From contig CANIAS010000010.1 of NCBI GenBank assembly GCA_947465495.1, forward strand, positions 1 to 59,296: 59,296 nucleotides of DNA, in the 5' to 3' direction. The DNA comes from Candidatus Pollutiaquabacter sp. (lineage in GTDB: Bacteria; Bacteroidota; Bacteroidia; AKYH767-A; 2013-40CM-41-45). This document shows positions 35,311 through 52,254 of the stretch, in pieces; the first letter of the stretch is position 1; every line of letters begins with the position of its first letter. The notes under the pieces were generated by a model. That model saw only the letters and a program-made list of their open reading frames with translations. It did no database searches and had not been told where the DNA came from. A program made the translations under genes and the position numbers.

Positions 35311-36216
35311 TCATTGTAGTTGCTTTTGAAAATGTTCTTCATACAACCGATGAACAATTCCATCCGCTAATCCAATCTGCGGAACTATTACTTCGGGTAT
35401 TTTTGCCGCCTTCATGATTCCCAGAAAAATCTTAGCTGCCGGCACAATTACATCAGCACGATCCGGATTCAGTTCCCACACATCAATTCGTTCATCGACC
35501 GTCATTACTTTTAATTCGTCGTAAAAAGCTTTCAACAAATCATAGGAAATCGGTCGATCCTTTTTCCCAAAAATTTTATAAATCTTATTGATATTACCGC
35601 CAGATCCGATCGCTGATTTTATCGAATAATTGGCCGTAACGTTCTTGACCCAATCTTTAAGCTCGTCCCAACACTCACGTGTAATGGATCCCTGAATCCA
35701 TCGAATAGTTCCGACATTAAAGGAGCGACTGGCGATACAATGGCCTTTTTCGAAAAGGGTCACTTCAGTACTGCCACCACCAACATCGATGTACAGGTAA
35801 TTGGCATCACGCTCTAAATGTTGCTCAACATGATTGCTATAAATCAGTTCCGCCTCCTCTTTGCCAGAAATGATATCGATATCTATTCCACAGGCTTCTT
35901 TCACTGCAAGCGCCAATTCCCTTCCATTGCGTGCCTCACGTAGCGAAGCAGTAGCACAGGCTCGATAAGCAATCGGATGGAAGACTTCGATAAGTAATTT
36001 GAAGGCCTCCATCGTTTTGATGAAGCGTTTTGAACGCTCGGCAGAAATTCCACCCTGACTAAATGCATCTTCGCCCAAACGTAACGGTATCCGTATCAAT
36101 TCAGACTTATTGAAATGCAATTCGCCATGCTCCTCAACGACATTGCATAGCAAAAGCCGCACGGCATTCGAACCAATATCTATTGCAGCAAATCGTGTGA
36201 GTGAATCTTTTCCCAA
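35311..36216 (-). CDS. ppx: Ppx/GppA family exopolyphosphatase
   Basis: The 301-residue protein has the actin-like ATPase fold of Ppx/GppA phosphatases: RFAAIDIGSNAVRLLLC at the start, RACATASLREARNGREL, and the phosphate loop YIDVGGGSTEVTLFE. It would degrade polyphosphate or (p)ppGpp-type pentaphosphate; it is the short form lacking the C-terminal HD domain of E. coli Ppx. The start is TTG at 36216; no ATG or GTG fits in frame nearby. It follows ppk1 with a 76-base gap on the same strand, as in a polyphosphate cluster. Confidence 0.9.
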   Translation of the reverse strand: MGKDSLTRFAAIDIGSNAVRLLLCNVVEEHGELHFNKSELIRIPLRLGEDAFSQGGISAERSKRFIKTMEAFKLLIEVFHPIAYRACATASLREARNGRELALAVKEACGIDIDIISGKEEAELIYSNHVEQHLERDANYLYIDVGGGSTEVTLFEKGHCIASRSFNVGTIRWIQGSITRECWDELKDWVKNVTANYSIKSAIGSGGNINKIYKIFGKKDRPISYDLLKAFYDELKVMTVDERIDVWELNPDRADVIVPAAKIFLGIMKAAKIPEVIVPQIGLADGIVHRLYEEHFQKQLQ

Positions 36217-36292
36217 GCTACTGAACTGTGTAATTTTGAAACTAATTTCGGATAATCTGGAAAGTTGTCAAAATGATCAACCCTTCCAAATG

Positions 36293-38392
36293 CTATGACT
36301 TATCAACCTCTGCTTGTACATTATCCGTAGCATCATTCGATTGGCGTCGCAACCAGTCGTAAATCTCCCACTGTGATCGATGTTGTTTTTTTGAATCATT
36401 TTTAAAATGAGTATTCGATAATTCCTCATCGATTAAACGAGCCTTGACATTATCATTCAATTGGATTTCCAAGTATTTTACCAATTGCTGCTGAAGCCTT
36501 GGATCATAAATCGGAACAGCAACCTCTGAACGATAATCGAGATTCCGATACATCCAATCACCGGAGGAAAGATAATACTGCTCCTCCCCGTTATTACAGA
36601 AAACAAAGATGCGGCTATGTTCTAAGAAACGATCAACAATGCTTGTAACACGAATATTGTCACCAATACCTGGCAAACCCGGCACGAGCGAACAGATTCC
36701 ACGAACAATCAACCAAATCTTCACCCCCGCTCTTCCCGCCTCATATAATTTTTCAATCATTTCGCGATCAAAAAGGCTATTCATCTTCAAGATAATCCAT
36801 GCCGGCTTCCCTTCCTTGACATGCGCAATTTCCTGATCGATCAATTTCAAAAATCGCTTACGTGTATTAAATGGAGAAACAATGAGATGTTTGTAATGTC
36901 CGATCTTGTAATTGTCTTTATAAAAAGCGAACAAACGCTCGACCTCACGGGTAATGCGTACATCGGTAGTAAGTAATGCATGGTCTGTGTACAATTTGGC
37001 GGTCTGTTCATTGAAGTTGCCAGTACCGATGTAAGCAAATTGCGTCAACTTACCCTTCTCTTTCTTTGTAATGAGAAACAACTTCGAATGAACTTTTAGC
37101 CCTGGCACTCCAAAAATGACTTGTGCTCCTTCTTCTTGCAATCGACTAGCATGAGAAATATTGGTCTCTTCATCAAAACGAGCCTGCAATTCGAGTACAG
37201 CTGTCACCTGTTTGCCATTCCGGATAGCATTCACAAGGGCATTGATAACACTAGAATTTATTGCTGCTCTATAAAGTGTAATATATATGGACTGCACCTG
37301 AGGGTCAATAGAGGCTTCCCGAAGCAGGTCAATGATTCTTGAGAACGAATGATAGGGGTAGGAAAGTAAAACATCCTTCTGTTCAATAACCTGTAACAAA
37401 CTACGCTGGCCTTTGAAATCTGGATGCTCCAAAGATTGAATAGGGCGATACGATAAATGCACGCCACCGACATTGGGAAACTGAATAAAGTCTTTGAAAT
37501 TATGATATCGTCCTCCCGGGGTTAAGTGCTCCGATTTTCGCAATTTAATTTTACGTAAAATGAAGCCAAGTAAATCTTTCGGAATTTCCTGATCGTAGGT
37601 CAATCTGACTGGAGCACCCTTCTTCCGTTGCTTTACGCTTTTCTCTACTTTTTCCATCCAGCTTTTAGACGCATCAGCATCAAAGTCTAATTCTGCATCA
37701 CGCGTAATTTTAATGGTATATCCCTTGGCAACATCGTAATCAACTACCGGAAAGATCTCGTCTATGCAGTATCGTATCACATCGTCCAGCAAGATGATCC
37801 GCGTATGATTCTTGTCAGCTGGCAAAACCAAAAATCGAGATACCACATCTGTGGGTATCTCAAGAATAGAATAAGTCTCGTGCTTTTTTTTCTTCTTGCT
37901 AAAAAACTTGATTGCAAGATAAATGGACTTATCCTTTAAATAAGGGAATTTAGGGGCACTGGAAACCATAATTGGCACCAGGAATGGTTGGACTTTATCC
38001 TTAAAATATTTTCGTACGAAATCACCTTGCAACTTGGTTAACCGTGTCTCGTCAACAATTTGAATATTCTGTTTCGACAATTCCTCAAGGATTGCCTGGT
38101 AAATATTCTCAAATCGAACTTGCTCCGAAATAACTTTACGCTGAATTTCTTTAATCAGCTTGCCGGGGTTGATGCCTAGAATCTGTTCGCCACGTCGATC
38201 AAACTTCTCCATCCGTCGGATAGTCGCTACCCGTACTCGGAAAAACTCGTCCCTATTACTCGAATTAATCGCTAGGAATCTAAGCCGCTCCAACAAGGGA
38301 ACATTCGGATCTTCCGCTTCTTGCAACACCCGCTCGTTGAAAGACAACCAACTGATGTCGCGGTTAACAAACGGCAATTTTCTGTGACTCAT
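36293..38392 (-). CDS. ppk1: Polyphosphate kinase 1
   Basis: PPK1 builds polyphosphate from ATP and can run in reverse. The 699-residue protein has the expected domain order: N-terminal (FVNRDISWLSFNERVLQEA), head with FLVPIMVSSAPKFPYLKDKS, and two catalytic phospholipase-D-like halves. The autophosphorylated histidine is in LKVHSKLFLITKKEKGK, followed by YIGTGNFNEQTAKLYTDHAL, and the second active-site histidine is in RFLEHSRIFVFCNNGEEQYY. Start is ATG at 38392. Its own start codon lies 8 bases after the stop of the lysine-rich gene, so they share a transcript. Confidence 0.97.
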   Translation of the reverse strand: MSHRKLPFVNRDISWLSFNERVLQEAEDPNVPLLERLRFLAINSSNRDEFFRVRVATIRRMEKFDRRGEQILGINPGKLIKEIQRKVISEQVRFENIYQAILEELSKQNIQIVDETRLTKLQGDFVRKYFKDKVQPFLVPIMVSSAPKFPYLKDKSIYLAIKFFSKKKKKHETYSILEIPTDVVSRFLVLPADKNHTRIILLDDVIRYCIDEIFPVVDYDVAKGYTIKITRDAELDFDADASKSWMEKVEKSVKQRKKGAPVRLTYDQEIPKDLLGFILRKIKLRKSEHLTPGGRYHNFKDFIQFPNVGGVHLSYRPIQSLEHPDFKGQRSLLQVIEQKDVLLSYPYHSFSRIIDLLREASIDPQVQSIYITLYRAAINSSVINALVNAIRNGKQVTAVLELQARFDEETNISHASRLQEEGAQVIFGVPGLKVHSKLFLITKKEKGKLTQFAYIGTGNFNEQTAKLYTDHALLTTDVRITREVERLFAFYKDNYKIGHYKHLIVSPFNTRKRFLKLIDQEIAHVKEGKPAWIILKMNSLFDREMIEKLYEAGRAGVKIWLIVRGICSLVPGLPGIGDNIRVTSIVDRFLEHSRIFVFCNNGEEQYYLSSGDWMYRNLDYRSEVAVPIYDPRLQQQLVKYLEIQLNDNVKARLIDEELSNTHFKNDSKKQHRSQWEIYDWLRRQSNDATDNVQAEVDKS

Positions 38393-38399
38393 TCTCCTA

Positions 38400-38666
38400 C
38401 TATTTCTTGCGCGCTTTCTTGCGTACCACTTTCTTGACGGCTGGCTTTTTCACGGATTTCTTCGAAACCGGTTTAATGACATTCACCGCTTTTTTCTTCT
38501 CTGTCTTCCTGTTCTTGATGAATTTCTTTACCAATGACTTACAGGTAGAGCGTAGCTGTTTGCGAATACTACGTGCAGCAGCTGCATCTTCGTGGGAAAA
38601 AATATCTTCCAATGCAACAAGGACTTGCAGTTCCAGCCTTTTCTTGATCTCTTTGCTTTTTTTCAT
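38400..38666 (-). CDS. Lysine-rich small basic protein, possible polyphosphate or DNA binder
   Basis: The 88-residue protein has about 30 lysines and arginines. The first half is a helix with hydrophobic spacing (LELQVLVALEDIFSHEDAAAARSIRKQLRSTCKSLVKKFIKN). The second half is a repetitive basic tail (KPVSKKSVKKPAVKKVVRKKARKK) like histone-H1/AlgP tails. No family beyond that resemblance is recognised. It lies directly upstream of ppk1 with an 8-base gap, so polyphosphate binding is a natural hypothesis. DNA binding is the alternative. A signal peptide or membrane helix is absent. Confidence 0.75.
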   Translation of the reverse strand: MKKSKEIKKRLELQVLVALEDIFSHEDAAAARSIRKQLRSTCKSLVKKFIKNRKTEKKKAVNVIKPVSKKSVKKPAVKKVVRKKARKK

Positions 38667-38753
38667 TGATGTTGAATTATTGGGTAAAGAAGGATAAAAT
38701 GCCTTGATTTTCGCTCTTATATTGAAGGGTTAACAATTATTTAAAAAGACCAA

Positions 38754-39260
38754 CTAGTCCAGTTGACCTTTCAGCTGCTTCGGTGTTGTCATTAAGATCA
38801 ATTGTGCACCAGCTGATCCGATCTCATGCCATTGGTCTGTTTGAATCTCCAACACAGCAAGTCCACACGTAGGCAAATACAAATCAGTAGTTTTCAATAA
38901 CGTGTTGAGCAGGTCGGAAATAGAGCTATTGTGCCCAACCAACAACACCGTTTCGTGTCTATTATATAATTCCGATACTACCTTCAAGTAATCCTCTATT
39001 CCTGAATCGTACAAGGTGGAGTGCAACTTCAAGCTATTTTGGCTCATCTTCAGCTGCTGCATGACAATTGATGCGGTGGTATACGTTCGAATAGCAGGAC
39101 TTGCAACAACCAATTCAGGCAGAACTTGCTGATTATGGATAAATTGGCCCATAATGGGTGCATCAGCATAGCCCCGTTCATTTAGTGGGCGGAAATAATC
39201 ATGTAAGCCTTCAACCTCCCAACTTGATTTTGCATGTCGGAGTAATAGCAAACGTTTCAT
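38754..39260 (-). CDS. SixA-like histidine phosphatase
   Basis: The 168-residue protein has the RH motif of the histidine phosphatase superfamily in LLLLRHAKSSWEVEGLHD, LNERGYADAPIMG and the second catalytic histidine in LLVGHNSSISDLLNTL. SixA in E. coli removes phosphate from a phosphohistidine protein; the Bacteroidota relatives are little studied. It is the first gene of the sixA-like / lysine-rich / ppk1 / ppx cluster (gap 87 bases). Confidence 0.85.
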   Translation of the reverse strand: MKRLLLLRHAKSSWEVEGLHDYFRPLNERGYADAPIMGQFIHNQQVLPELVVASPAIRTYTTASIVMQQLKMSQNSLKLHSTLYDSGIEDYLKVVSELYNRHETVLLVGHNSSISDLLNTLLKTTDLYLPTCGLAVLEIQTDQWHEIGSAGAQLILMTTPKQLKGQLD

Positions 39261-39442: not shown

Positions 39443-40216
39443 CTACCGAAAAATAGACACTAATTTCACCGTATTTCCATACATAGTCGTGCAATATATT
39501 GCATATAATCCGGCAGGTAGATCAGCAACAGAAATGGTGACAGAACCGCTGGGAGCTAACACATCATTTATTTTGATGGTTTCACCATTCATGGAACGTA
39601 AAGCCACAGTCAATAACTGATCTGCAGTAACTGTGAGCAGGTCAGATGTTGGATTAGGATATGCAGATATAGAGGGTGTGGTTGCAGCATTTATTCCCGC
39701 AGTAGCACCATCAATAACCCGGTAAGAACACGTAGAACCATTTAGATATGCTTCAATAGCATAAAGATCGGTCACCAAAACAGCGCCCGTACCTCCTACT
39801 AGGTTCATTCTGATCATAACCACTTGACTATTATCAGGTATTCTTGTCAATGAAAAAGAAGTAAACCGGAAAGTACTGTCTGCAGGATTCAAGTATTGAC
39901 TGTAGGATAAACTGGTATTTACAGGAATGATGGAATCATACTCAACTGCCGATGAGTTGTATCGGAATGCAAAATCAACCGCATAAATGGTGTCATCAGA
40001 ATTAAAAAATACTGGAAAATCAACAAAACCAATCCCATAAACGGCTTGAGAAAGGTCGAAATAAATCGTATCCAAGTTATTGATTGTCCGGACTTGCGGC
40101 AAACTGTTTCCATTCCGATGATTAGCTTCTTGAGCGAAAAGTAAACCCGTGCATAAAAACAGAAATAATACCAGTGGAGCTGTTATTAAACTAAATGTAT
40201 TTTTCATTCTTTCCAT
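39443..40216 (-). CDS. Secreted protein with cohesin-like domain and T9SS type A domain
   Basis: The 257-residue protein has a signal peptide (ITAPLVLFLFLCTGLLFAQ) and then one beta-sandwich of cohesin-like appearance: IYFDLSQAVYGIGFVDFPVFF, IYAVDFAFRYNSSAVEYDSI, NPADSTFRFTSFSLTRIP, IEAYLNGSTCSY. A T9SS type A end follows (AYPNPTSDLLTVTADQL to LPAGLYAIYCTTMYGNTVKLVSIFR). It aligns over its full length with the last 230 residues of the neighbouring large protein, so it is a stand-alone copy of that module. A start at the fourth codon is possible. Function unknown. Confidence 0.8.
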   Translation of the reverse strand: MERMKNTFSLITAPLVLFLFLCTGLLFAQEANHRNGNSLPQVRTINNLDTIYFDLSQAVYGIGFVDFPVFFNSDDTIYAVDFAFRYNSSAVEYDSIIPVNTSLSYSQYLNPADSTFRFTSFSLTRIPDNSQVVMIRMNLVGGTGAVLVTDLYAIEAYLNGSTCSYRVIDGATAGINAATTPSISAYPNPTSDLLTVTADQLLTVALRSMNGETIKINDVLAPSGSVTISVADLPAGLYAIYCTTMYGNTVKLVSIFR

Positions 40217-40296
40217 TTAAAAAATAAAGGTATTGTCCGTAGGTTAATGCGACCTTTCCATACTATTAAACTATAGTAAAGCAAAGGTTAACGGAT

Positions 40297-40330
40297 ATAA
40301 AAAAACCGGCCCCAATTTCCTGGAGCCGGT
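40297..40330 (-). terminator. Rho-independent terminator after the 1138-residue gene
   Basis: On the minus strand ACCGGC-TCCA pairs with TGGG-GCCGGT around a six-base loop with one mismatch (305-330 of this kilobase, 40305-40330), followed by TTTTTTT. It is 20 bases past the stop of the large gene. Confidence 0.8.
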
Positions 40331-40349
40331 CTTGATAATAAGAATTAGA

Positions 40350-43300
40350 TTAACGATTGACTACGATCCTTTCCGTAGCAATGAAGTTGCTATTGTAAAC
40401 ACGCACCATGTAAATGCCTGCTGACAAGCCAGCGATGTTGATCTCCGTCTTTGCAGAAGCAGCAATATTCGCCTGGGAAAGAACAACGCGACCGCTGAGG
40501 TCAACCAATTCAACATTAGCTTCTTCCGCTGAAACGATGTTCAACACTTCCGTAGCAGGATTAGGAAACACCAGAACATGGAAAGCATTATTAACGGCTG
40601 ACTGATCGATGCGGACCGATTCGCCATTTAAGTAACCCTCAACAGTATTCAAATCAGCTGATGAGAATGAACCATTCAACATGGAGAAACGAACCATAGC
40701 AACTGTAGCAAAGGAGTTCATTCCTTCAAGACTGCTACTGGTAAAACGCAAAGTTTGATCGTCTGAGTTATAATTCGCCAATCCTTGCATCGAATTTCCT
40801 GAAGACAATACAGATTCAAACTTGAGTTTGGATGTATTGAAATTCATTGCAAAGTCGAGCGCATTGACTGTACCTTCACTGATGAAGGATACAGGAACAT
40901 CCACATGATTTCCAGTTACAACCGCTTTAGAAGCATCTACTACGATACGGTCGTTTCCATTCATACGGAAGGAAGAATTCGGAACAGTCGTGGAATAGTT
41001 TCCATTTACGTCTCCAATTAAAATTCCTTTATAGACATCAGGTGTAAGTACAGGACACGAAGTCAAGCCAGAGGAATTAACGGGTAAACAGAATGGAACT
41101 ACCGGAACACGGCTCTTAGAGAAACCAATACCATCGTCGCCAGGGAAGGTCGTCGAAATACGGTACGCAAAGTTGGTGGTCAAGGTATTAGCCGAATCAA
41201 CAAACATCCAGTCTTTGGAAGGACTTCCGTTGGATACACCGGATGCGTTATAGTTCCAAGCCTGGCGGAATTCAGGAATGAACAATACCGCACGTTGGTT
41301 GACTTGCGATAAGTCGCCTGCTGAAATAACTCCATCCATATTAACATCCATAGCAACAGCCTGATAAACTGTAGGAACAAATGTAGGATCATTCAAAATC
41401 ATACGACGCACCAAGAAAGCATCAAATCCATTAATGACTGGCTGTACGCTGGTGGTGTTAATGATGTTCTTTTCAATCGTGATCTTCTCACCATCAGCCA
41501 CGTTGTATTGGAAGACACCTGATGTATCCGGCTGCGTAGAATTCACAGACAGTGATGTACAGGTACTATTGTTTCCATTCACATTGGTGACTAAATATTG
41601 ATTAGGGTTTGCCACATTGTATTTAATAGGCGAATTATCCAACCAAAAGCGAAGATTACCACGATACAAAGAATCCTTGTACGAAATGTATTTCCCAGCC
41701 TCTACCAAACGAGAAGAAACACCTGTATAACGGCTCTCCTGTAGGAATGGAATGGAAACCGCGCCGGTGTCTATGGAACTAAACGTGCTTGTTTTTGTGA
41801 ATTCAACACAAAATACATTTCCAATACCTGCGAATGAAGTATTTGCTGGGGCAGTCGAGTTAAAAAACAAGGAGATAGTAATGCTACCCGATACTGAATC
41901 AATCGCACTGGCAACATCTACATAAGAAGGAGTAATCAAATCACTTGCCACAGTGATTACACCAGTAGGACGCAACTTGGCCGTATTATAGAGCATCGTA
42001 ACATCATACCCGATAACATTTCTTACCGTGTCAACTGCGCGAACAGGCAAGCAGACCGAACTGTTAGCGCATGGAGCATTGGTAGTAACTACTTTATATG
42101 GCAATGCATTCGGATCGATAATATTAACTGTCACAGCCGCAGATGTGGTTGTTGCACCACGATCATCGGTAGCCACAGCTGTAACTAGTGCAGTTCCAAT
42201 TACGCTGGTCCAAGTGAAAGAAAACGGAGAAGTGTTGTCTGACCCTACTAAGGAGCCATTAACATAAAAACCTACAGAACTCACCGTGCCATTTGCATCA
42301 GCCGCTGTAGCCGTAAAAGTTACGTTAGCCGGGAATGTGTAATTGGCTCCATTGGAAGGAGAAGTGATGCTAACAGTAGGAGGTACGTTATTAATGACAC
42401 TGATACTAACAGCCGACGAGGTCGTCTGAGCACCAAGGTTATCGGTAGCTCGTGCGGTAATGGAATGCGTTCCTAAGGCTGCGGTATACGAAGCAGCATA
42501 TGGGGAAGTGTTGTCTGTAGAAAGCAATACGCCATCCACGAAGAATTCCACAGAAGCTACACTCACGTTATCTGTAGCAGCGGCAGTAATTGATACTGCA
42601 TCTCCAACTACATACGAACTGCCTGTGGCAGGTGCGGTAATACTGCAAGTTGGGGGAGGATTGTTAGCTACCGTAATGGAAACCCCTGCAGAAGTTGTCT
42701 GAGCACCAAGGTCATCTGTAGCACGCGCAGTAACAGTATGTGAGCCTGCTACACCAACATAGGTTGCAGAATAAGGAGACGTATTATCTACTCCTACAGA
42801 AACGCCATCTACAAAGAATTCAACGGATGACACCGTACCATCGGCATCAGCAGCACTAGCACTCAATGTGATTGTTGCTCCGGTAAGAAAACTGGCTCCA
42901 TTGGCAGGAGAAGTGATGTTTACCGTTGGCGCTTGGTTGGCTGCTCCTAATGTTCCTGTAAGGAATGAAGCAGTCAATTCACTACCGGTTGGATTAGAGA
43001 ATACGTAGTTCTGTGTTCCACCAGTAGGTGTTCCAATTTGAATGTTCAATTCATAGTGAAGTACGCCGTCAGTGGTAAACTGACCAATACAAACAATATT
43101 GGTAGTATCAAGTCCTGTAGCACCGCCTAACGCAGCAATTGAACCGTTATTAGTAGTGAAATTCCCTCCTACCTGACTAGTACCATCGAAAACACCAAGG
43201 TCACCGTTTCCAGTGTTGTTGATACCTACGAACGTCACTGCCAAGGGAGTTCCCGCCAGCAAACCGTCACGGGAATTGGTTCCAGTGATTGGGTAGGTGA

Positions 43301-43766
43301 TGGTTGGATCAAAATTAGCCAGAATTGCATTTGCGTTACCTAAGCTACCATCTGTGTCGACTGATTTACGCACAGCGAACTTACCAGAACATCCAGATCC
43401 AACAGAAAACCAGGAGTCAATCATGGCTGTGAATTTGCGAATGTTGGTTGCACTAATACTATTAGGTGCTGTACCCCCGTAATTCTCATCGTTGAAGAAC
43501 GTAGTAGAAGAAGTAATGGTGAGCGGGTGAGCACTTACACCATAAAGGGCTTGAAAATTATAGCCCGGCAACATATCTGCATACAAACGATATGTAACTG
43601 AACCTGATGGTAGAACGCCAGCAGCCGACGCAGAGTCGGCAGCATTTGAAACGTAGTATTTTTCTACGATGATGTTCTGGAGTCCATTCTGGGCACGTAC
43701 TGTCGAAAAAATCGACAGTACGCCCAGCAACAGAAGTAAGGATAATCTTTTGGCTGTATGTATCAT
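40350..43766 (-). CDS. Large surface protein: EKYYVS module, three Ig-like repeats, dockerin-like and cohesin-like parts, T9SS domain
   Basis: The 1138-residue protein has, in order: signal peptide (to VRAQ), the EKYYVS module (about 28-270) shared with two other proteins here, three Ig-like repeats of about 92 residues (280-556), a cohesin-like segment (about 557-690), a dockerin-like region with the calcium-loop pattern DVNMDGVISAGDLSQVNQR and GILIGDVNGNYS, a second cohesin-like sandwich and a T9SS type A end (VFPNPATEVLNIVSAEE to IATERIVVNR). It should be exported to the cell surface. The order of repeats and loops is like large Bacteroidota matrix proteins. It is 21 bases downstream of the beta-helix gene and is followed by a terminator. 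Confidence 0.85.
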   Translation of the reverse strand: MIHTAKRLSLLLLLGVLSIFSTVRAQNGLQNIIVEKYYVSNAADSASAAGVLPSGSVTYRLYADMLPGYNFQALYGVSAHPLTITSSTTFFNDENYGGTAPNSISATNIRKFTAMIDSWFSVGSGCSGKFAVRKSVDTDGSLGNANAILANFDPTITYPITGTNSRDGLLAGTPLAVTFVGINNTGNGDLGVFDGTSQVGGNFTTNNGSIAALGGATGLDTTNIVCIGQFTTDGVLHYELNIQIGTPTGGTQNYVFSNPTGSELTASFLTGTLGAANQAPTVNITSPANGASFLTGATITLSASAADADGTVSSVEFFVDGVSVGVDNTSPYSATYVGVAGSHTVTARATDDLGAQTTSAGVSITVANNPPPTCSITAPATGSSYVVGDAVSITAAATDNVSVASVEFFVDGVLLSTDNTSPYAASYTAALGTHSITARATDNLGAQTTSSAVSISVINNVPPTVSITSPSNGANYTFPANVTFTATAADANGTVSSVGFYVNGSLVGSDNTSPFSFTWTSVIGTALVTAVATDDRGATTTSAAVTVNIIDPNALPYKVVTTNAPCANSSVCLPVRAVDTVRNVIGYDVTMLYNTAKLRPTGVITVASDLITPSYVDVASAIDSVSGSITISLFFNSTAPANTSFAGIGNVFCVEFTKTSTFSSIDTGAVSIPFLQESRYTGVSSRLVEAGKYISYKDSLYRGNLRFWLDNSPIKYNVANPNQYLVTNVNGNNSTCTSLSVNSTQPDTSGVFQYNVADGEKITIEKNIINTTSVQPVINGFDAFLVRRMILNDPTFVPTVYQAVAMDVNMDGVISAGDLSQVNQRAVLFIPEFRQAWNYNASGVSNGSPSKDWMFVDSANTLTTNFAYRISTTFPGDDGIGFSKSRVPVVPFCLPVNSSGLTSCPVLTPDVYKGILIGDVNGNYSTTVPNSSFRMNGNDRIVVDASKAVVTGNHVDVPVSFISEGTVNALDFAMNFNTSKLKFESVLSSGNSMQGLANYNSDDQTLRFTSSSLEGMNSFATVAMVRFSMLNGSFSSADLNTVEGYLNGESVRIDQSAVNNAFHVLVFPNPATEVLNIVSAEEANVELVDLSGRVVLSQANIAASAKTEINIAGLSAGIYMVRVYNSNFIATERIVVNR
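42099..42929 (-). repeat. Three tandem Ig-like repeats inside the 1138-residue gene
   Basis: Three units of about 92 codons repeat the order P-T-x-x-I-T-x-P-x-x-G, V-x-S-V-x-F-x-V-x-G, D-N-T-S-P, H-x-V/I-T-A-x-A-T-D-x-x-G-A-x-T-T-S. They differ by many substitutions, so they are not a recent duplication. Confidence 0.85.
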
Positions 43767-43787
43767 AACAATGCTATTCGTCTCTTA

Positions 43788-45470
43788 TTATTGGCAAGAC
43801 TGATTGAACTTACCGAGTAACTGTAGGAAGTCTACGTTATTCGTTGTACCATCCACGTTAATATCGGTAGGACAATCTTGGGTTCCGTTAACCATACCGA
43901 AAATTTGAGTCATGGAGAATTCAGAAAGCCAGTTTTTGCCTGATGGAGAAAATGCGCCACGGTAGGGAGCCGCTGTATAGAAACCATCAACAGGAGCGAC
44001 CGGACAACCAGTCGTAGAAAGTGCTGGATTAGGGATAGCGTCCACTTGGGTGGTAACTGCGTTGGAGGATGAATTCATCGTCCAAACGTTATTCATACCT
44101 GCTACAGACGAAACAGAAATGTTCAAGTCTGTTGTATAGAATTGAGCTGTATCGGTGCTAAGGAATGTACCAGCAGAAGCTGCTGTTGATTTGTCAATTC
44201 GAACCGGATAAGTTACACCAACGAAGGTGTTACATTTTACTTTCAGACTATTGGAGCCATTACCGCCAGTATTAGCCCAGTTGTGGTAAGCTTCAAAACC
44301 ACCAGTACGAGTACCAACAGCTTTAATCATATTCAAACCAAAACGGAAGTTCGTGAAAACAGAATTGTAGAATTCACCTTCTGTAAGCTCTTTCGCTTCA
44401 ATCGCAGCGATACCAGAGTTATCACTTGACAAATACGATTTGTTATTACCAATAATAGTGGTATTGTAGATAACCGGATGTGAACGAACTAGATTGTTTG
44501 ATTTCTGATCGTCAGCATCGCACTCAAAACCATTGTCGGCATCAGCGCTGGTCGTGGTATCCGCTGTACTTGTTTTCAATCCAAAAAGGAACTGTGCCTT
44601 ACCTACCCAACCGTCATCGAAATCGAACATATCATCATTACCAAAGAGCGACGCACAATATTTCAAATTCACTGTACCGCCCCAAAGTTCGATGCCATCG
44701 TCAGCACAGCTGATAATCTCGATGTGGTCAATCGTAGTTCCACGTCCAACAGATCCCAAAGAAAGTGCGTTCAATTCACCACCTACTTGAAGGATTGCTC
44801 CTGCATGGCGGATAGACACATACCGTAAAATACCTGAGTTATCATTGTCATCAAATGAACCTGTTGTCGTATTTACACCGAACTGGTCTTTGCTATTAGA
44901 ACTGGAAAATCCTTCGAAGGTTCCGAGTCCGTTAGCCACAGCGATTTTACCATCGCCTACACCAGCTTGGAATGGGCCGTTGTTAGCCAACAACAAGTTG
45001 TTAGATGCTTTACCTGCAACACAGATACCGCCCCATTTACCTTTATTGTTGATAGAATAGGTGCCATCCATTGGATCAGCTTCAGCTGTAAAAACAATCC
45101 AGCAAGTAGGAGAACCACTTGCAAATATTTTTCCACCCACTTCTACTGTCAATGCTACCGCTGAATCTGCTGTAGAGTAAGCACGTCCTTTAATAACAGT
45201 ACCAGGATTGATAGTTAATGTCTTTCCGTTAGGAACATAGATCTTCTTGTCCAAGATGTAGGTCTTAGAACAATCAAGAATGGTGTTGGATGCAATCAAC
45301 TCACCATCGGTTGCTCCACCACTGGTAGCAAGTGTAGATAACAATACGGTTGCACGAGAAGATACCGAAGGACATCCGCAATCGGCACCAAGGTTAGTCT
45401 GCGCGAAAGCAGTCGTGCATGCTGTCATTGCCATAGCGGCAATTGCCATTACTTTTTTGAGTGTTTTCAT
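43788..45470 (-). CDS. Secreted right-handed beta-helix-like protein with dockerin-like C-terminus
   Basis: The 560-residue protein has a signal peptide (MKTLKKVMAIAAMAMTACTTAFAQ) and a long beta-helix-like body: TLTINPGTVIKGRAY, TIDHIEIISCADDGIELWGGTVNLKYC, NDDMFDFDDGWVGKAQFLFG, SHPVIYNTTIIGNNKSYL. The C-terminus lacks the usual T9SS type A pattern; it ends in DINVDGTTNNVDFLQLLGKF plus NQSCQ, one dockerin/EF-hand-like loop. Similar proteins are often listed as T9SS C-terminal-target proteins. It is the first gene of a two-gene unit with the 1138-residue gene, downstream of a 226-base space in which no promoter matching TAnnTTTG was found. Confidence 0.82.
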   Translation of the reverse strand: MKTLKKVMAIAAMAMTACTTAFAQTNLGADCGCPSVSSRATVLLSTLATSGGATDGELIASNTILDCSKTYILDKKIYVPNGKTLTINPGTVIKGRAYSTADSAVALTVEVGGKIFASGSPTCWIVFTAEADPMDGTYSINNKGKWGGICVAGKASNNLLLANNGPFQAGVGDGKIAVANGLGTFEGFSSSNSKDQFGVNTTTGSFDDNDNSGILRYVSIRHAGAILQVGGELNALSLGSVGRGTTIDHIEIISCADDGIELWGGTVNLKYCASLFGNDDMFDFDDGWVGKAQFLFGLKTSTADTTTSADADNGFECDADDQKSNNLVRSHPVIYNTTIIGNNKSYLSSDNSGIAAIEAKELTEGEFYNSVFTNFRFGLNMIKAVGTRTGGFEAYHNWANTGGNGSNSLKVKCNTFVGVTYPVRIDKSTAASAGTFLSTDTAQFYTTDLNISVSSVAGMNNVWTMNSSSNAVTTQVDAIPNPALSTTGCPVAPVDGFYTAAPYRGAFSPSGKNWLSEFSMTQIFGMVNGTQDCPTDINVDGTTNNVDFLQLLGKFNQSCQ

Positions 45471-45696
45471 GTTTAAATGAATGATTTAAGGTTGAGTTTG
45501 ATGAGATTGCTATTTTATAAATACACTTCAAAAATCCTATAGACAATTGAAGCCATCAATAAGTAAAACTTAAGATTGATTTAAAGAATCGTGAACGGAA
45601 GTACAACTAAAAGAGAACGAAATGTTAACTGCTGAAAAAGAACAATGATGATCTACCAAATTTTAGATCAAAGTCAATTAGTATAAACCAGTCAGT

Positions 45697-46428
45697 TCAA
45701 TCTTTGACACAACGAACACTCATTCCATATCCGGCAGAAACGTGCGAACGGAAAACAGCTGAGGCCTTATAGTCCAAATACCGATACCAACTTTCTACTC
45801 CTTGTTGTGGTGTGGATGTCCACCAAAAACCAGCATACGTCAAACCGCCTGGTGTACTATAGCGAGCATCAAACAAACGGCAACCACCAGCCAAGGCTGA
45901 AAATGAATACGCATCAGTGGCCCACACCTGTTGGTAACGTGCCCAATAGTCAAGTCCGGTTTTTTTTAATTGATCGCCCTGATTACTACCCCGCCAACCT
46001 GTCTTTGAGGCATCAGTACCACTCATGCCCACAAATTGCTCCAGCGTTTTCCAATCTTCGTCCGATGCCACATGCCATCCAGCAGGTGCTAATTGACGTG
46101 AATCGCTGACTGCTTTAAAATTATACAACATGCCGGGCGCATTCGAATTCCCTTCATAATAGCAGCAAAGCGGCACCGAATTAGTGGATCCAGCCCAACC
46201 GATTGAATCGGTTGAATTCACATACAAAATCGCATCGCCATTGTTGAAGGTACTCACTGCCAAATTCTCGGCCATCCACCATTGATCACCAATCTTGACT
46301 GTACGATAGACGTTTCCTTCAACATCTGTCAAGGTGCCGAACTCAGGAGTAACAACACTTGGTTCGTCCTCACAAGAGTTCAGGAATAGAATGAAACTTA
46401 CAAGAAATAGGCGGAAGCAAGTTTTCAT
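45697..46428 (-). CDS. Lipoprotein with FISUMP domain
   Basis: The 243-residue protein has a lipoprotein signal (LFLVSFILFLNSC) and then the Fibrobacter succinogenes major paralogous (FISUMP) domain: LTDVEGNVYRTVKIGDQWWMAENLAVS, GMLYNFKAV, APAGWHVASDEDWKTLEQFVG, ALAGGCRLFDARY and FWWTSTP, MSVRCVKD. The domain is found in many Bacteroidota and Fibrobacteres surface proteins; its function is not known. After the cysteine come the acidic residues EDE, which resembles surface lipoprotein export signals in this phylum. It lies 4 bases after the stop of the 445-residue gene, so it is the last gene of that operon. Confidence 0.85.
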   Translation of the reverse strand: MKTCFRLFLVSFILFLNSCEDEPSVVTPEFGTLTDVEGNVYRTVKIGDQWWMAENLAVSTFNNGDAILYVNSTDSIGWAGSTNSVPLCCYYEGNSNAPGMLYNFKAVSDSRQLAPAGWHVASDEDWKTLEQFVGMSGTDASKTGWRGSNQGDQLKKTGLDYWARYQQVWATDAYSFSALAGGCRLFDARYSTPGGLTYAGFWWTSTPQQGVESWYRYLDYKASAVFRSHVSAGYGMSVRCVKD

Positions 46429-46432
46429 GTTT

Positions 46433-47770
46433 TTACTCTTTCACAAATAATTTTTTAACGCTTTGAGTCGCACTATAGATGCGCACCACATAAATCCCTG
46501 CAGCTAATTCACCTACCGGGAGCAAAACTCTTCCTGCGCCCTGCGAAGCAGCAAATGCAGCTTGCTTACATAGCATTCCTGACATTGAAACCAATTCAAC
46601 ATGATAGGTATCATCAGTGTCCGAAATCCACTGTAATAGTAATTCCGATTGCACCGGATTGGGCAATACCATCAACTCCTGCATTCCAGTTCGTCCGAGA
46701 TTTAATTGTGGACAAACCACTGCCAAATCCCGATCGTTACAATACCCGGGGTAACAGCAAAGTGACGGTATGTTAAAGTTGGCTGTTGGATCATAATTAC
46801 AAGCCATCGTATCGGTACAACCCAATACCACCAATGTGCGACATGAGTCAGAATTGCCGCAAGCAAAGGAAGAGGAATACTCCAGGTAATTGGGATCTAT
46901 ACAACCGCAAGACTGCGGATAACGTAGCGTTGGGGCAACCTTTAAGGTGTCAGAATTTGTTTCACCGGCAGCCAATTCAGAAACGTACTTTACTTGCTTG
47001 GGAATAGGAACTCCTGGCTCTTCGACAAGTACATTTAAACGAAAACGAAGGTCCCCTGTAGTCGTCAACTGCGCCACTAATACCTGATTTTTCACGGGGT
47101 CTTTTCCAGCTACCCCTGAGTTTGCCAATACGGCTCCTGTACTATAAAAAGTATTCCTTGCTACCAATGAGCCAAAAATAGTCGAGTCATCGCCAGTAAT
47201 CGGATCCAGGAAACCAGCATCCAACCAGTTCGTTGGAATAACTGAAAGTGTATCATTCCCATCAGCAGTAGTGAGTGGAATTCCAGCAGATGGATCGGTG
47301 TTGGCTAATAAACCTGAAGAAATCATCGCACTTCCACCGTCGTTGTTACTTCCACCAATAAATGAACCATCCGTATCATCCGCCTTCAATACCCCGAAGT
47401 AGGTCTTTGTCGACGATCGAGTCAACTGTCCGATGGTAATCCAAGAATCTAGGGCTACTGTATTTTCACCCAGACGTGTTTTGCTAAAATCTTTCCCAAA
47501 TGATTGTCCGTCAGCCAAATTGTTAAAGAAATTTTCGGTAGAAGCAAATTCGAGTGGATGCGCATAATCTCCATACACTGCTAACAATTTTGAACCAGGC
47601 AATAAGTCAACGTATATACGATAGGTCACAGATCCAATTGGCAATACTCCTCCGGTAATATCGGTCGCATCGTTTCCATCGGAAACATAATAACGCTCAA
47701 CGATTACGTTCTCCACCTGCGCGGCGGCAGTAAAGCCTACAACTAAAAATAAGATAACCAGGAAACGCAT
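46433..47770 (-). CDS. Secreted EKYYVS-module protein with Cys-rich insertion and T9SS domain
   Basis: From ATG at 47770 the protein has 445 residues, with signal peptide MRFLVILFLVVGFTAAAQ. An upstream start at 47896 would overlap the TonB receptor gene by more than 100 bases and give no signal, so it is rejected. The EKYYVS module follows (VENVIVERYYVSDGND, GSVTYRIYVDLLPG, VALDSWITIGQ, FGVLKADDTDGSF). After it comes a cysteine-rich part with the pattern GCTDTMACNYDPTANF and then a T9SS type A end (VLPNPVQSELLLQWIS to VKKLFVKE). It begins 19 bases after the receptor stop. Confidence 0.85.
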   Translation of the reverse strand: MRFLVILFLVVGFTAAAQVENVIVERYYVSDGNDATDITGGVLPIGSVTYRIYVDLLPGSKLLAVYGDYAHPLEFASTENFFNNLADGQSFGKDFSKTRLGENTVALDSWITIGQLTRSSTKTYFGVLKADDTDGSFIGGSNNDGGSAMISSGLLANTDPSAGIPLTTADGNDTLSVIPTNWLDAGFLDPITGDDSTIFGSLVARNTFYSTGAVLANSGVAGKDPVKNQVLVAQLTTTGDLRFRLNVLVEEPGVPIPKQVKYVSELAAGETNSDTLKVAPTLRYPQSCGCIDPNYLEYSSSFACGNSDSCRTLVVLGCTDTMACNYDPTANFNIPSLCCYPGYCNDRDLAVVCPQLNLGRTGMQELMVLPNPVQSELLLQWISDTDDTYHVELVSMSGMLCKQAAFAASQGAGRVLLPVGELAAGIYVVRIYSATQSVKKLFVKE

Positions 47771-47789
47771 CCTTGACTGTATGTGATTG

Positions 47790-50700
47790 TTAGAGTTTAT
47801 AGGCAACGCCAAACTGGAAAATAGTTCCATACTGGAAGTTATCGTAATCCAGATTATATCCATCTTCGTATTTATAAGAACGACGGATTGGCGCATTCAG
47901 CAAATCTTTGATTGTCAAACTCAGCGTAAAATGATCGCCGAGCGACTTGGTACCTTTAAGGTCCACTTGATTTCTAGGGAGCTCATAGATATCCGGTATC
48001 TCTGCAACATCAGCTGCAATCACGAGACGAGGACCTTGTATGTTGTAACTCAACGTGAATGACAAGCCGTATTTCTCAGGTGTATACGTGAAAATGGCGT
48101 TAAATACATACGGTGCTTGTCCGAACATCGGACGACGCAACGTATCCAATGGATAATACGTCTTAACACCTTCACTCAAATCCAGTCGTTTGCGAACAAA
48201 TTCAGTCTCACTATGAATCAATGATAAATTAGCTCGAACTTCCAAGCGTTTGCCCAACTTCTTGCGACCTTCCAATTCAATACCTGCCACATACGAATGA
48301 TCAACGTTCTGCCATGTCAATCCAACGGATTTAACAATTTCGATGTGGTCTTTGAACGCCTTGTAAAATAGACTGGCAGATATGTTGTCTGAATTTTTAT
48401 TGTACAATTCATAGCGCACATCAAAATTGCTGATATGCACTGTCTTCAAATCAGAATTTCCAAATACAAACAAGCGGTATTCGTAGTCAAGTTGTGCAAT
48501 GTCCGACAATTCACGGATGCTTGGACGGGCAATGGTTCTGCTAAAATTGAAACGAAGGTTGGATGGCGCTTCATCAGAGTCCTTTAAACGATAGATAACA
48601 TTGACACTTGGCAGGAAATTAGTTTCATTCAATTCGCCGGGATTAGCCAACGGATAACTTGAACTATAAGCACGTCGTGGATCGTTAACTGCATAGCCCA
48701 AGGAGTCAAACAACACAACATCTGTGTAAACGGCAGCGCGCTCAATGCGCAAACCACCGGCAATCCTCCAGCGCTCATCAACTTGGAAATCAGTCATAAC
48801 GAAACCGGAAGCAATTGAACTCCTACCGAAGGTGTGATTGGCAGGATTGTCAAATACGCCGTAGTAGCAATCCAATGTACTATGTTCTACCCCATACATG
48901 TCAGTGTAGGTACTCAATCCAAAGTTGGCCGGTGCGAACAACGCATTCAGGTCATTGTCTTTCAAATCCAGCACAGAATAAGGACCCAGGTTGACAAAGT
49001 AATCATACTGGTCACTTAACTTATGATTCCATTCATACGAACCGCCTGCCAACAACTTTCGGCTCATTCCTTCCTTGGTAAAGAATGGCATCTCGGCTTT
49101 CAACCGATTGTCCCACAAATTATCAGTCAAGTAGCGGTAGTAGCGGTGAATACCATCTCCGATTGCGCCGCCAATCTGATAGGCATCAGAGTTGGGATCG
49201 TAGTAGTACTGCACATTCTTAAAATCCGGAGCTACACTTTTACCTGCAGTATACGAGGTGTTGAAATCAATCTTGATTTTCTTAGACGGAATATAATGTT
49301 CCGATTTAGCTTGATAGACTAGCTGACGGCGTTGCTCGTAGAACTGACTATTGGTAATGACGTAATTCGTAGGGTCCTGGGTGTCTTTGCTATAACGTAC
49401 ATTATTGACACCATTCAAATTTGGCATCGCCAACACCGAAATCGAATTGTTGGGATTCAATTTCATAGACAAGTTCAACAACGCACTCCAACCATTGCTC
49501 TGACGACTAATTTGCTGCTCCGTGCGTGAGGCAACTGCAGGTATGAATTCTCCATTGGAGTCCTGGGCTACCGTAGCACGAGCTGTTGTTGAGGTAGGAT
49601 CATACACCATGGAGCTAGCATACCGGAAACCGAAAAGATACCCTACCGTCTTTCCAAACAAGGTTGTCTGATTTCCAATATTGAAACTTTGGCTAAAATT
49701 GAGTGGTGCTTTTTTATAAAATGTATTCCAATTATCCGAAAATGATTGCCCGGTCGATACCGCTCCGGCGTTCAACGTATTGAATGCTCGATTCTCATAG
49801 GAGCCGTTGCTATAGGCAGTTGTTGCAGCACTAACAGCCGATGGGTCGTTAATCAGCGCCGGAGCAAGCAAGCCCAATTGTACCAATCCAAGTCGGTAAT
49901 AATAATCGCCCACCGGCGTTCCTTCTCCCCAATTTGACTGATTGACACCTAATGAATTATAGTAGGCGCCAAGACCCAGAGCCGTGAGCTCCTGATACTT
50001 CATTGGAGTAATGTATGCGACTTGAAAACTGGAGTGATCACGGTCGCGCAACGAATTATCATATCCCAACCAATCGGTACTACTACGTTCAGAGGTAATC
50101 ACATCTTGAAATGTACTCTGTGTATTGTATCCAAATGTTGTTTCAAATCCTACCGTAAATTTTTCAGGATAGTCTTTGGTCTCCACCGAAATGTAAGCAC
50201 CTGCCCAGTCTCCCGGAAGGTCAGGCGATTCGGTCTTAGTGATCACGATATTATCGACGAGTCCAGCCGGAAAGAGGTCAAGTCGAATGTTGTTGGTAAA
50301 TGGATCTAACGTAGGAATGCGCAATCCGTTGAGTGTCGTTTTTACATACCGATCACCAATACCGCGTACCGTAATTAAACCACCGGTAGTAGAAACACCA
50401 GAAACACGGGAGATAGCGGCTGTCACCGTATTGTCGCCAGTTTTCTTCATTACATCGGCGGAAATATAATCGATGGATGTAGCCGATTTCTTTTTAATCG
50501 TTTCGAAATAGTAATCATTGGAACGTACAGCTTTAGCAGAAATCTCCACTTCTTTCATCTGTTGAGCTGAAGAAAGCAACGTTACATTTTTGATGACAAC
50601 GCCATTTTTAATTGGCGTGATGGTCTCTTCCAACGGCTGCAGACCAACCATGGTGAAAATCACAACCGGTTGTGGCAGTTCCGGTAATTTCAACGAGTAA

Positions 50701-50888
50701 TTACCATCGAGATCCGTGACCGTGCCAATCGATTTGTTGGATTTCAACACGACTACAGCGCCAGGCAAGGTCTCTCCATTAACGTCTACTACTTTACCAC
50801 GCAACGTGCATTGCGCTTTAGACACGCCAGCCGCTAGGTAGATAAAAAGGGCGGTGACCAGCAGCGTCCACCGTGTCATTGAATTCAT
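47790..50888 (-). CDS. TonB-dependent receptor of the EKYYVS locus
   Basis: The 1032-residue outer-membrane protein has a signal peptide ending at GVSKAQ, a carboxypeptidase-regulatory-like domain (LRGKVVDVNGETLPGAVVVL, TDLDGNYSLKLPEL), a plug (RVSGVSTTGGLITVRGIGD, TLNGLRIPTLDPFTNN, PAGLVDNIVITKTESPDLPGDWAG) and a barrel ending in FQFGVAYKL. No SusD-like partner is adjacent. It sits between two secreted EKYYVS proteins (39 and 19 bases away), so all are likely co-expressed. The transported ligand is unknown. Confidence 0.9.
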   Translation of the reverse strand: MNSMTRWTLLVTALFIYLAAGVSKAQCTLRGKVVDVNGETLPGAVVVLKSNKSIGTVTDLDGNYSLKLPELPQPVVIFTMVGLQPLEETITPIKNGVVIKNVTLLSSAQQMKEVEISAKAVRSNDYYFETIKKKSATSIDYISADVMKKTGDNTVTAAISRVSGVSTTGGLITVRGIGDRYVKTTLNGLRIPTLDPFTNNIRLDLFPAGLVDNIVITKTESPDLPGDWAGAYISVETKDYPEKFTVGFETTFGYNTQSTFQDVITSERSSTDWLGYDNSLRDRDHSSFQVAYITPMKYQELTALGLGAYYNSLGVNQSNWGEGTPVGDYYYRLGLVQLGLLAPALINDPSAVSAATTAYSNGSYENRAFNTLNAGAVSTGQSFSDNWNTFYKKAPLNFSQSFNIGNQTTLFGKTVGYLFGFRYASSMVYDPTSTTARATVAQDSNGEFIPAVASRTEQQISRQSNGWSALLNLSMKLNPNNSISVLAMPNLNGVNNVRYSKDTQDPTNYVITNSQFYEQRRQLVYQAKSEHYIPSKKIKIDFNTSYTAGKSVAPDFKNVQYYYDPNSDAYQIGGAIGDGIHRYYRYLTDNLWDNRLKAEMPFFTKEGMSRKLLAGGSYEWNHKLSDQYDYFVNLGPYSVLDLKDNDLNALFAPANFGLSTYTDMYGVEHSTLDCYYGVFDNPANHTFGRSSIASGFVMTDFQVDERWRIAGGLRIERAAVYTDVVLFDSLGYAVNDPRRAYSSSYPLANPGELNETNFLPSVNVIYRLKDSDEAPSNLRFNFSRTIARPSIRELSDIAQLDYEYRLFVFGNSDLKTVHISNFDVRYELYNKNSDNISASLFYKAFKDHIEIVKSVGLTWQNVDHSYVAGIELEGRKKLGKRLEVRANLSLIHSETEFVRKRLDLSEGVKTYYPLDTLRRPMFGQAPYVFNAIFTYTPEKYGLSFTLSYNIQGPRLVIAADVAEIPDIYELPRNQVDLKGTKSLGDHFTLSLTIKDLLNAPIRRSYKYEDGYNLDYDNFQYGTIFQFGVAYKL

Positions 50889-50927
50889 AACGTGGCAATA
50901 GAGAATTTGGATCTAATCAAATGTTGC

Positions 50928-52016
50928 TTAGTACTTGATGAGTTTGCTAACCGAAACTGCTTCGGCTTCTTTCCATACTAAGAAATAAACTCCTGAAGGC
51001 AACGAAGAAATATCTACGATTTCCTCGCCGGCAACAGCTGAAACAGTGTTATTGAGCAACGTTTCTCCGCTAACATTTTTTACTTCGTACGTGAGCGCTT
51101 GATCATTTGATGCCTCGTGATGAAGCACACGATATTTCCCATTGGAAGGATTCGGATAAACGCTGATACGCAACGCTTCTGCTTGAACTTCGCTCATTCC
51201 CGTAGAGGAAGAGTTGTAAATTAGTCCAGGAAATTGAATTTCACTTCCAATCGGATTCATAGCAACATAATTCTCTGTGCCGCCAGAAGGTGTTCCAATT
51301 TGAATGTTCAGTTCGAAAGAAAACGTACCGTCGGTAGTGATTTGAGCGATGAGAACTTTGTTATCTGCTGTTGGACCTTCGGATCCGTTCAACGAAGCCC
51401 ATGAGCCATTGTCAGTATAAAAGATAGGACCATTGGTTCCATCGTTCTGGTCCGCAAACACCAGGATTTCATTCGTGATACCTACTGCAGTAACCGCTTC
51501 GGGAGTTACTCCTGCTACTGCAAGGAATCCATCCTGCTGATTCAAAGGAATACCAGCTTGTGGATCGTTATTCTGTAGTACTTGTGGCGTGTAGCTATTG
51601 ATAGCGGTATTGACACCATTATCTTCTGATTTCAATACGCCGAAATTTCCGTTGCAGGCAGCACCCACCGACAACCATGAATCAAGCATCACCGTGTTGT
51701 TGGCGGCCTGCGTCTTGGTGAACGTAGGAGAAGTGTTACCACGATCTTGGTTGTTGAAGAAAAGTGTGGATGTCTGAATAGTCATTCCATGTCCTGGAAC
51801 TCCATACGCTGCCTGGAACTTATAGCCCGGAATCATGTCCACATAAATTCGATAGGTAACTGAGCCTACTGGAAGTACGCCACCGTCAACGTCTGCCGCT
51901 TGATCGTTCACATCTGAAACGTAGTATTTTTCGACAATAATATTTTCAAGTCCTTGGGCGCTGACAAGTAGGCCACTGACGAGGCAAACCAAAAGGGATA
52001 CAAGTTGTTTTTTCAT
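50928..52016 (-). CDS. Secreted EKYYVS-module protein with T9SS domain (minimal form)
   Basis: The 362-residue protein is the simplest of the three: signal peptide (MKKQLVSLLVCLVSGLLVSAQ), the EKYYVS module (LENIIVEKYYVSDVND, GSVTYRIYVDMIPGYKFQ, FFNNQDRGN, VMLDSWLSVGAACN, FGVLKSEDNG, FELNIQIGTPSGGTENYVAMN) and a T9SS type A end (VYPNPSNGKYRVLHHE to VSVSKLIKY). It is the first gene of the receptor operon. A 13-base-pair hairpin lies 4 bases before its ATG. Confidence 0.85.
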   Translation of the reverse strand: MKKQLVSLLVCLVSGLLVSAQGLENIIVEKYYVSDVNDQAADVDGGVLPVGSVTYRIYVDMIPGYKFQAAYGVPGHGMTIQTSTLFFNNQDRGNTSPTFTKTQAANNTVMLDSWLSVGAACNGNFGVLKSEDNGVNTAINSYTPQVLQNNDPQAGIPLNQQDGFLAVAGVTPEAVTAVGITNEILVFADQNDGTNGPIFYTDNGSWASLNGSEGPTADNKVLIAQITTDGTFSFELNIQIGTPSGGTENYVAMNPIGSEIQFPGLIYNSSSTGMSEVQAEALRISVYPNPSNGKYRVLHHEASNDQALTYEVKNVSGETLLNNTVSAVAGEEIVDISSLPSGVYFLVWKEAEAVSVSKLIKY

Positions 52017-52020
52017 GGCT

Positions 52021-52063
52021 GGGTGGTGTAGTTAGTTGACTGCAAAATTGAACCATACCACCC
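52021..52063 (-). promoter_or_regulatory. Hairpin in the leader of the first EKYYVS gene
   Basis: On the message the arms GGGUGGUAUGGUU and AACUACACCACCC pair, with 12 of 13 pairs allowing one G-U and one A-C mismatch, around a loop of about 17 bases. The lower seven pairs are perfect (ACCACCC with GGGTGGT on the plus strand, 52021-52027 and 52057-52063). The stem ends 4 bases before the ATG at 52016, in the ribosome-binding area. Confidence 0.5.
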
Positions 52064-52254
52064 ACTCTTCACGAAACGATTTGTTATTTTAAATTTAAGT
52101 CTATATTAAGCAGTTCATATTGTGTTTTCTTTAAATACACATATGATTTACATGACTAAAAAAGGCGAAAACTTACTGGTAGATCAGGCGATAACTGCGA
52201 TGGTAGTACCAAACAATTTGCTATACTTGTTGACGATTCGTTAACAATAGCATT

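Follow-up and report, generated by a model that had tools for sequence, protein, structure and literature searches.

A conserved surface-protein locus with a probable phosphate-starvation role in uncultured, mostly freshwater Bacteroidota

The window, a stretch of 59,296 nt from Candidatus Pollutiaquabacter sp., contains a gene locus that is read here, at a probability of roughly 60 %, as a phosphate-starvation-induced surface system for a phosphorus-containing substrate. Judged by sequence, the system would be Pho-controlled, T9SS-displayed and partly cohesin/dockerin-tethered. The probable phosphate link is well supported, with promoter, ancestry and neighbourhood as its basis. The locus is conserved, and as far as we could find, the set had not been described before. 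An earlier note on this DNA had proposed one surface assembly or uptake system, which is still the best reading; a phosphate-starvation response as the purpose and cohesin/dockerin pairs as the means of assembly probably have to be added.

The reading frames of the locus (Table 1) were confirmed as open, all on the minus strand, and their spacing agrees with two tight gene runs. The first run, MODA to FISUMP, has intergenic gaps of 39, 19 and 4 bp, the second (45470-39443) has gaps of 21 and 133 bp, and 226 bp separate the two. A C-terminal sorting domain was present on MODA (Por_Secre_tail, 42.8 bits, cut-off 27; Pfam), MODB (TIGR04183, 29.6 bits, cut-off 23; NCBIfam), MODC and COH, and absent from HELIX. 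The earlier statement that every protein carries a T9SS-type or lipoprotein-type export signal did not hold for HELIX, whose plain signal peptide comes with neither a lipobox nor a T9SS tail. The FISUMP protein matched PF09603 (140.6 bits) and also TIGR02145, while TBDR matched TIGR01782 (NCBIfam) below the cut-off of that model. The flank 35311..39260 is a phosphorus-related neighbourhood (ppk, ppx) outside the conserved gene set. On the other side, a second TonB receptor (52255-54570, plus strand) is divergent from MODA; its nearest NCBIfam models are heme/siderophore receptors, below cut-offs, and the type was seen beside only one other locus copy, L078.

Table 1 Features of the window and of further locus copies or relatives (the latter with locus handle and position)
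Feature	Position	Strand	Description
MODA	50928..52016	minus	signal peptide, EKYYVS module (about residues 23-260), T9SS type A tail
TBDR	47790..50888	minus	1032-aa TonB-dependent receptor; CarbopepD_reg, Plug; locus-specific clade
MODB	46433..47770	minus	module, conserved Cys-rich stretch (GCxDxxACNYxPxAN..CCYPGxC), T9SS tail
FISUMP (Fib_succ_major) lipoprotein	45697..46428	minus	closes first gene run
HELIX	43788..45470	minus	beta-helix-type secreted protein; dockerin-like motif (CPTDINVDGTTNNVDFLQLLGKFNQSC) at end
MODC	40350..43766	minus	module, three Big_7 Ig domains, dockerin, cohesin, T9SS tail
COH	39443..40216	minus	cohesin-fold domain and T9SS tail
Candidate PhoB box, MODA upstream	52077..52109	minus	TTAATATAGAC TTAAATTTAAA ATAACAAATCG; TTTGC (52046-52042) 30 nt on
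Weaker candidate repeat, HELIX upstream	45596..45628	minus	TTAACATTTCG TTCTCTTTTAG TTGTACTTCCG; PWM score 10.1
Ppx/GppA phosphatase	35311-36216	minus	flank gene
Polyphosphate kinase	36293-38392	minus	flank gene
SixA-like histidine phosphatase	38754-39260	minus	flank gene
G323 superfamily proteins	L137:3000-6767, L137:6843-11027, L138:845-4309, L139:2394-5702, L140:2680-4935		
Short module-only proteins	L097:9998-10840, L104:593-1444, L035:14132-14968		
Stand-alone PhoB-type proteins	L113:5215-5511, L076:6275-6568, L068:2675-2998, L069:8522-8863, L035:1112-1420		
FISUMP-HELIX extra genes	L143:10583-11488, L090:9095-9781, L094:6448-7738		

MODA, MODB and MODC have in common an N-terminal module of ~230 residues. 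In BLASTP, MODA aligned with MODC at 51 % over 255 aa (E 1e-60) and with MODB at 38 % over 261 aa (E 8e-42), which confirmed the shared module of the earlier note, and its quoted motifs were present. The FELNIQIGTP strand had been assigned to MODA and MODB; it occurs in MODA, is lacking in MODB (FRLNVLVEEPGVP there), and MODC keeps the strand instead. The comparison of the three modules revealed ~75 invariant columns, and the own genome holds exactly three copies, no more. No Pfam or NCBIfam model covered the module in the three window proteins, 64 diverse members gave 0 relevant Pfam families, and the module profile retrieved 0 PDB chains at E<=1. A known domain was thus ruled out at the sensitivity of these libraries, and the module is unnamed, as had been stated.

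An AlphaFold model of the module from a 64-sequence input reached a pLDDT of 94 and a pTM of 0.90. The modelled module is mostly beta, and we read it as a predicted beta-sandwich with a long insertion. Foldseek returned no neighbour at E<=0.001; a second look gave weak fold neighbours among adhesin and cohesin sandwiches, with Z 5.7 and below. An identity with cohesin is not claimed, the beta-sandwich resemblance being weak (Z about 4.8). The adhesins among these neighbours (Als3 with Z 5.7, SdrC, ClfA) would fit a structural surface layer, adhesin or matrix, in which the module proteins would form polymers or a cell coat, with a receptor that anchors or signals rather than imports; several module paralogues per locus, and cohesin/dockerin parts suited to assembly, point in the same direction. 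However, resemblances at Z <6 may reflect the common beta-sandwich arrangement and nothing more, and the best-conserved link is the one to a full-length, plug-bearing TonB receptor and to a beta-helix protein of the uptake-pair type. A purely structural role is regarded as unlikely.

Distant relatives of the module were found in the closed genome G323. They retain the core TTYRVYAEM..TTxFYND..DSWVTIG..NRVLLGQFTTDG, which there starts Cys-rich proteins that are T9SS-tailed or dockerin-ended. The module is therefore one branch of a wider unnamed family. In G323 this superfamily (TTYRVYAEM..DSWVTIG..GQFTTDG) comprises several proteins per genome, rich in GCTDPTACNYDP repeats. Genome G101 encodes a giant protein with two modules in an open frame of 2366 aa (L141:14492-19900), at a locus in which the module occurs seven times. 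Also observed were short proteins of about 260-290 aa that consist of the module only and lack a T9SS tail, some with Lys/Arg-rich ends; the window genome has no such gene.

The complete copies of the locus that were read have the order MODA (1-3), TBDR, MODB, FISUMP, HELIX, MODC and usually one or two COH. This order was fixed in all complete copies of the main lineage; a few distant copies (L070, L083, L098, L109) were rearranged. Among the own genome and its relatives the module was an all-or-none feature, present in 22 of 41 genomes, usually with 3-5 copies. A sample of the class Bacteroidia contained 43 matching genomes among 395, 41 of them strong, and a quality-weighted phylum sample only 3 of 395. 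The top orthologues of HELIX occurred in 34 genomes at E<1e-130, followed by a gap to 1e-99, and those of TBDR in 35 genomes at E<1e-250; all belonged to the 41 strong module genomes. Module genomes without a top HELIX or TBDR were mostly fragmented or incomplete. The module recurs with one clade of TonB receptors, with the beta-helix gene and with FISUMP; this link, raised in the earlier note, was very strong in the genome searches, and the proposal of that note stands on both points, because the module is unnamed and the link recurrent. MODB copies formed a single clade (support 1.0), whereas A and C copies were intermixed in deeper lineages. Pairwise distances were correlated between TBDR and HELIX (Mantel r 0.77) and between TBDR and FISUMP (0.76). 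The locus is therefore an old unit, inherited or exchanged together. A mobile element or phage origin was rejected: plasmids gave no match to a module protein and viral contigs no relative. Some lineages insert a small outer-membrane barrel (PF13568) and a secreted protein of ~185 aa, which had no Pfam match, between FISUMP and HELIX. All 67 of 67 named loci were metagenome-assembled or uncultured, many with lakes, ponds, reservoirs or groundwater in their titles; the gene set has been found so far only in uncultured, mostly freshwater Bacteroidota.

Homologues of the beta-helix protein also occur beyond the locus. They were present in 267 of 395 class genomes at E<=1e-40, locus copies counted in, and in 15 of the 18 loci read the neighbour of a generic HELIX was a TBDR belonging to the same family. 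Several of these generic pairs had a PhoB-type regulator, a histidine kinase or PstS nearby. NCBIfam holds no named equivalog for the generic beta-helix protein. Locus and generic proteins hit the same profiles, and TBDR and HELIX of the locus are a sub-branch of this widespread generic pair. Likened by architecture (phoB-TBDT-beta-helix lipoprotein) and annotation, the generic pair matches the TBDT plus FI/FII pair of Flavobacterium johnsoniae. In PUSIII/IV of this organism, a TBDT is accompanied by the lipoproteins FI/FII with a pectin-lyase-like fold; the pairs Fjoh_0545/0546, in the phoBR operon, and Fjoh_3857/3856 were strongly induced when phosphate was depleted, and FI exceeded every other exoprotein in abundance (PMC8115612). 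FI/FII were reported as homologous to a low-phosphate lipoprotein of Caulobacter (PMC8115612); ElpS of Caulobacter crescentus is an extracellular low-phosphate lipoprotein (PMC2996285).

Promoters of both kinds of loci contained direct repeats. Pairs of TAA[CT] 11 bp apart numbered 66 upstream of the first gene of module loci versus 5.4 expected, and 36 in generic-pair promoters versus 1.1 expected; upstream of HELIX, 21, 31 and 22 pairs were counted at 11, 22 and 33 bp versus about 5 expected. After removal of redundancy, the 11-bp TAAY pair was present in 27 of 43 locus promoters (63 %; shuffled 0.07), 12 of 36 HELIX promoters (33 %) and 12 of 16 generic promoters (75 %). Controls yielded 5-7 % for shuffles and 13 % for unrelated neighbours; the neighbour control is not perfectly empty, because the 13 % of clean neighbour promoters that hold repeats belong partly to phosphate genes. 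The repeats keep a phase of 7 mod 11 to TTTGY, the -7 element, in 16/25 locus, 5/6 HELIX and 17/19 generic occurrences, with fitted sites mostly 8, 19, 30 or 41 nt upstream. PhoB boxes are expected to show just such 11-bp direct repeats, placed in a common register with the -7 element, and we consider the repeats candidates for such boxes. The literature searched contained no published Pho box for Bacteroidota. High-scoring neighbour promoters were those of PhoB, PstS, phosphate-porin and phosphoesterase genes: the repeat was found in 12 of 31 genes of the PhoB, PstS, OprP, phosphoesterase or Ppx type versus 23 of 197 other neighbours (p 5e-4), a classification set partly after the top scorers were seen. 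In the own genome, the strict repeat pattern gave 2 hits versus 9 in a reversed-pattern control, thus the strict pattern alone is not diagnostic; one hit was the MODA promoter, and no phosphate gene was seen beside the other. These repeats had not been part of the earlier note.

A phosphorus-type neighbour was present, as a raw count, at no fewer than 26 of 80 loci, many of them cut by contig ends. Beside some loci lie stand-alone DNA-binding proteins of the PhoB type, about 100 aa long and lacking a receiver domain; other copies have PhoB-type regulators with degenerate receivers. The inducing signal could therefore differ from phosphate, and a starvation-induced surface system might be controlled by a PhoB-family paralogue that senses a non-phosphate signal. 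Stand-alone or degenerate regulators lie directly beside L035, L041, L042, L068, L069, L075, L076 and L113; against such a control, the same repeats in the same register occur at the generic phosphate-type pairs and at neighbouring PstS, OprP and PhoB genes, and paralogue control is considered quite improbable. The copies L032, L033, L039, L044, L051 and L053, from one group of related genomes, have as neighbours sulfotransferases, a GH1-like gene and one that resembles a flippase gene, which suggests a linked surface-polysaccharide cluster.

The Pfam-level dockerin and cohesin of MODC and the cohesin protein 39443-40216 were likewise missing from the earlier note. In MODC, Dockerin_1 scored 28.4 bits (cut-off 22.9) and Cohesin 25.4 bits (cut-off 24.1); Dockerin_1 was found in 16 of 21 relatives at E<=0.01. 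A further cohesin-like stretch before the dockerin was judged by eye only. The fold of COH is that of a cohesin (Z 13.3 over 121 residues, rmsd 2.7), and the best 20 rows were all cohesin entries. Among 42 locus HELIX proteins, a script recognised 0 lipoboxes, 1 T9SS tail and 35 dockerin-like tails, whereas 17 of 18 generic HELIX proteins had a lipobox or T9SS tail by eye (12 by the strict rule of the script). The anchor of the locus HELIX thus looks like having been exchanged for a docking tail. Canonical dockerins have two EF-hand-like motifs; the HELIX tail has one, with weak Dockerin_1 hits in 2 of 28 proteins, and its sole hit among PDB profiles was a chain of a cohesin-dockerin entry, weak at E 0.13. 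Since the anchor is lost and a dockerin-like tail is present, HELIX probably docks onto the cohesin domains that MODC and COH carry, and a cohesin/dockerin tether at the locus is a good hypothesis. The surface location of HELIX and of short MODA copies is assumed, because they carry no outer-membrane export signal.

Among known systems, PUSIII/PUSIV of F. johnsoniae (PMC8115612) are closest in kind: a TonB receptor adjoins a beta-helix-type secreted protein, PhoBR and glycosyltransferases are neighbours, a PhoB-box-like promoter was seen for the generic pairs, and the setting is phosphate starvation. In the locus, however, a dockerin-like tail on the beta-helix protein takes the place of the lipid anchor, and the pair is joined by MODA, MODB, MODC, FISUMP and COH, a set that hardly varies. 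Because 0 of 42 locus HELIX have a lipobox, the locus is a variant, not a member, of the TBDT plus FI/FII systems. ElpS (PMC2996285), likened by description, belongs to the kind of extracellular low-phosphate lipoprotein for which homology with FI/FII has been reported (PMC8115612), but it is released by a T2SS-dependent protease and lacks T9SS modules and cohesin/dockerin. Like cellulosomal and non-cellulosomal cohesin-dockerin systems, the locus encodes secreted proteins with cohesin-fold domains and a Pfam-level dockerin; it differs by the lack of enzymes, by T9SS tails, by the single EF-hand-like motif in the HELIX tail and by a docking that is predicted. With SusCD polysaccharide utilisation loci it shares a TonB receptor with surface binding partners; a SusCD locus was rejected in the absence of SusD and CAZymes and with TIGR04056 at 53.8 bits versus 368.25. 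We file the locus with the TBDT plus beta-helix phosphate utilisation systems, as a variant, and neither as a cellulosome nor as a SusCD locus.

As an alternative, the locus could serve the generic uptake of glycans or proteins and have no phosphate role, PUL-like but without enzymes; a polysaccharide or peptide bound by the module and FISUMP proteins would then be imported by the receptor. Several surface binding proteins do accompany the TonB receptor, glycan-active secretomes typically contain FISUMP and Ig/cohesin modules, and the GH1-like gene and sulfotransferases adjoin some copies. Yet Pfam and NCBIfam revealed neither SusD nor a carbohydrate-active enzyme in the conserved set, TBDR stays far under the SusC/RagA cut-off (53.8 vs 368 bits), and promoter repeats and flanks indicate phosphate; such an uptake locus is rather unlikely. 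It counts against the phosphate reading, in turn, that the conserved set encodes no phosphatase or other enzyme.

In the preferred reading, the phosphate-starvation system, a PhoB-type regulator would bind the 11-bp direct repeats at both promoters. TBDR and HELIX would form the transport and capture core, derived from the low-phosphate TBDT plus FI/FII (ElpS-like) pair. MODA, MODB and MODC would be T9SS-exported beta-sandwich proteins, located at the surface with the FISUMP lipoprotein, and may bind the substrate, a surface polymer or one another. HELIX, docked to the cohesins of MODC and COH, would complete one tethered complex around the receptor, with a phosphorus compound as the presumed cargo. 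Only tentatively do we extend this to a phosphorus-scavenging complex in Gram-negatives, in which a T9SS-displayed scaffold (MODC, COH) might hold HELIX by its dockerin-like tail beside a dedicated TonB receptor, and members of the undescribed module family might act as its structural or binding subunits.

For Bacteroidia, a usable sequence signature would follow from the probable PhoB box together with the register that it keeps to the -7 element. Phosphorus is often the limiting nutrient in lakes, and the outer-membrane routes by which Bacteroidota presumably obtain it have hardly been described. The locus, with all 67 named contigs metagenome-assembled or uncultured, offers a specific gene set that recurs across genomes, together with its predicted trigger, a module family not described before and a putative docking arrangement.
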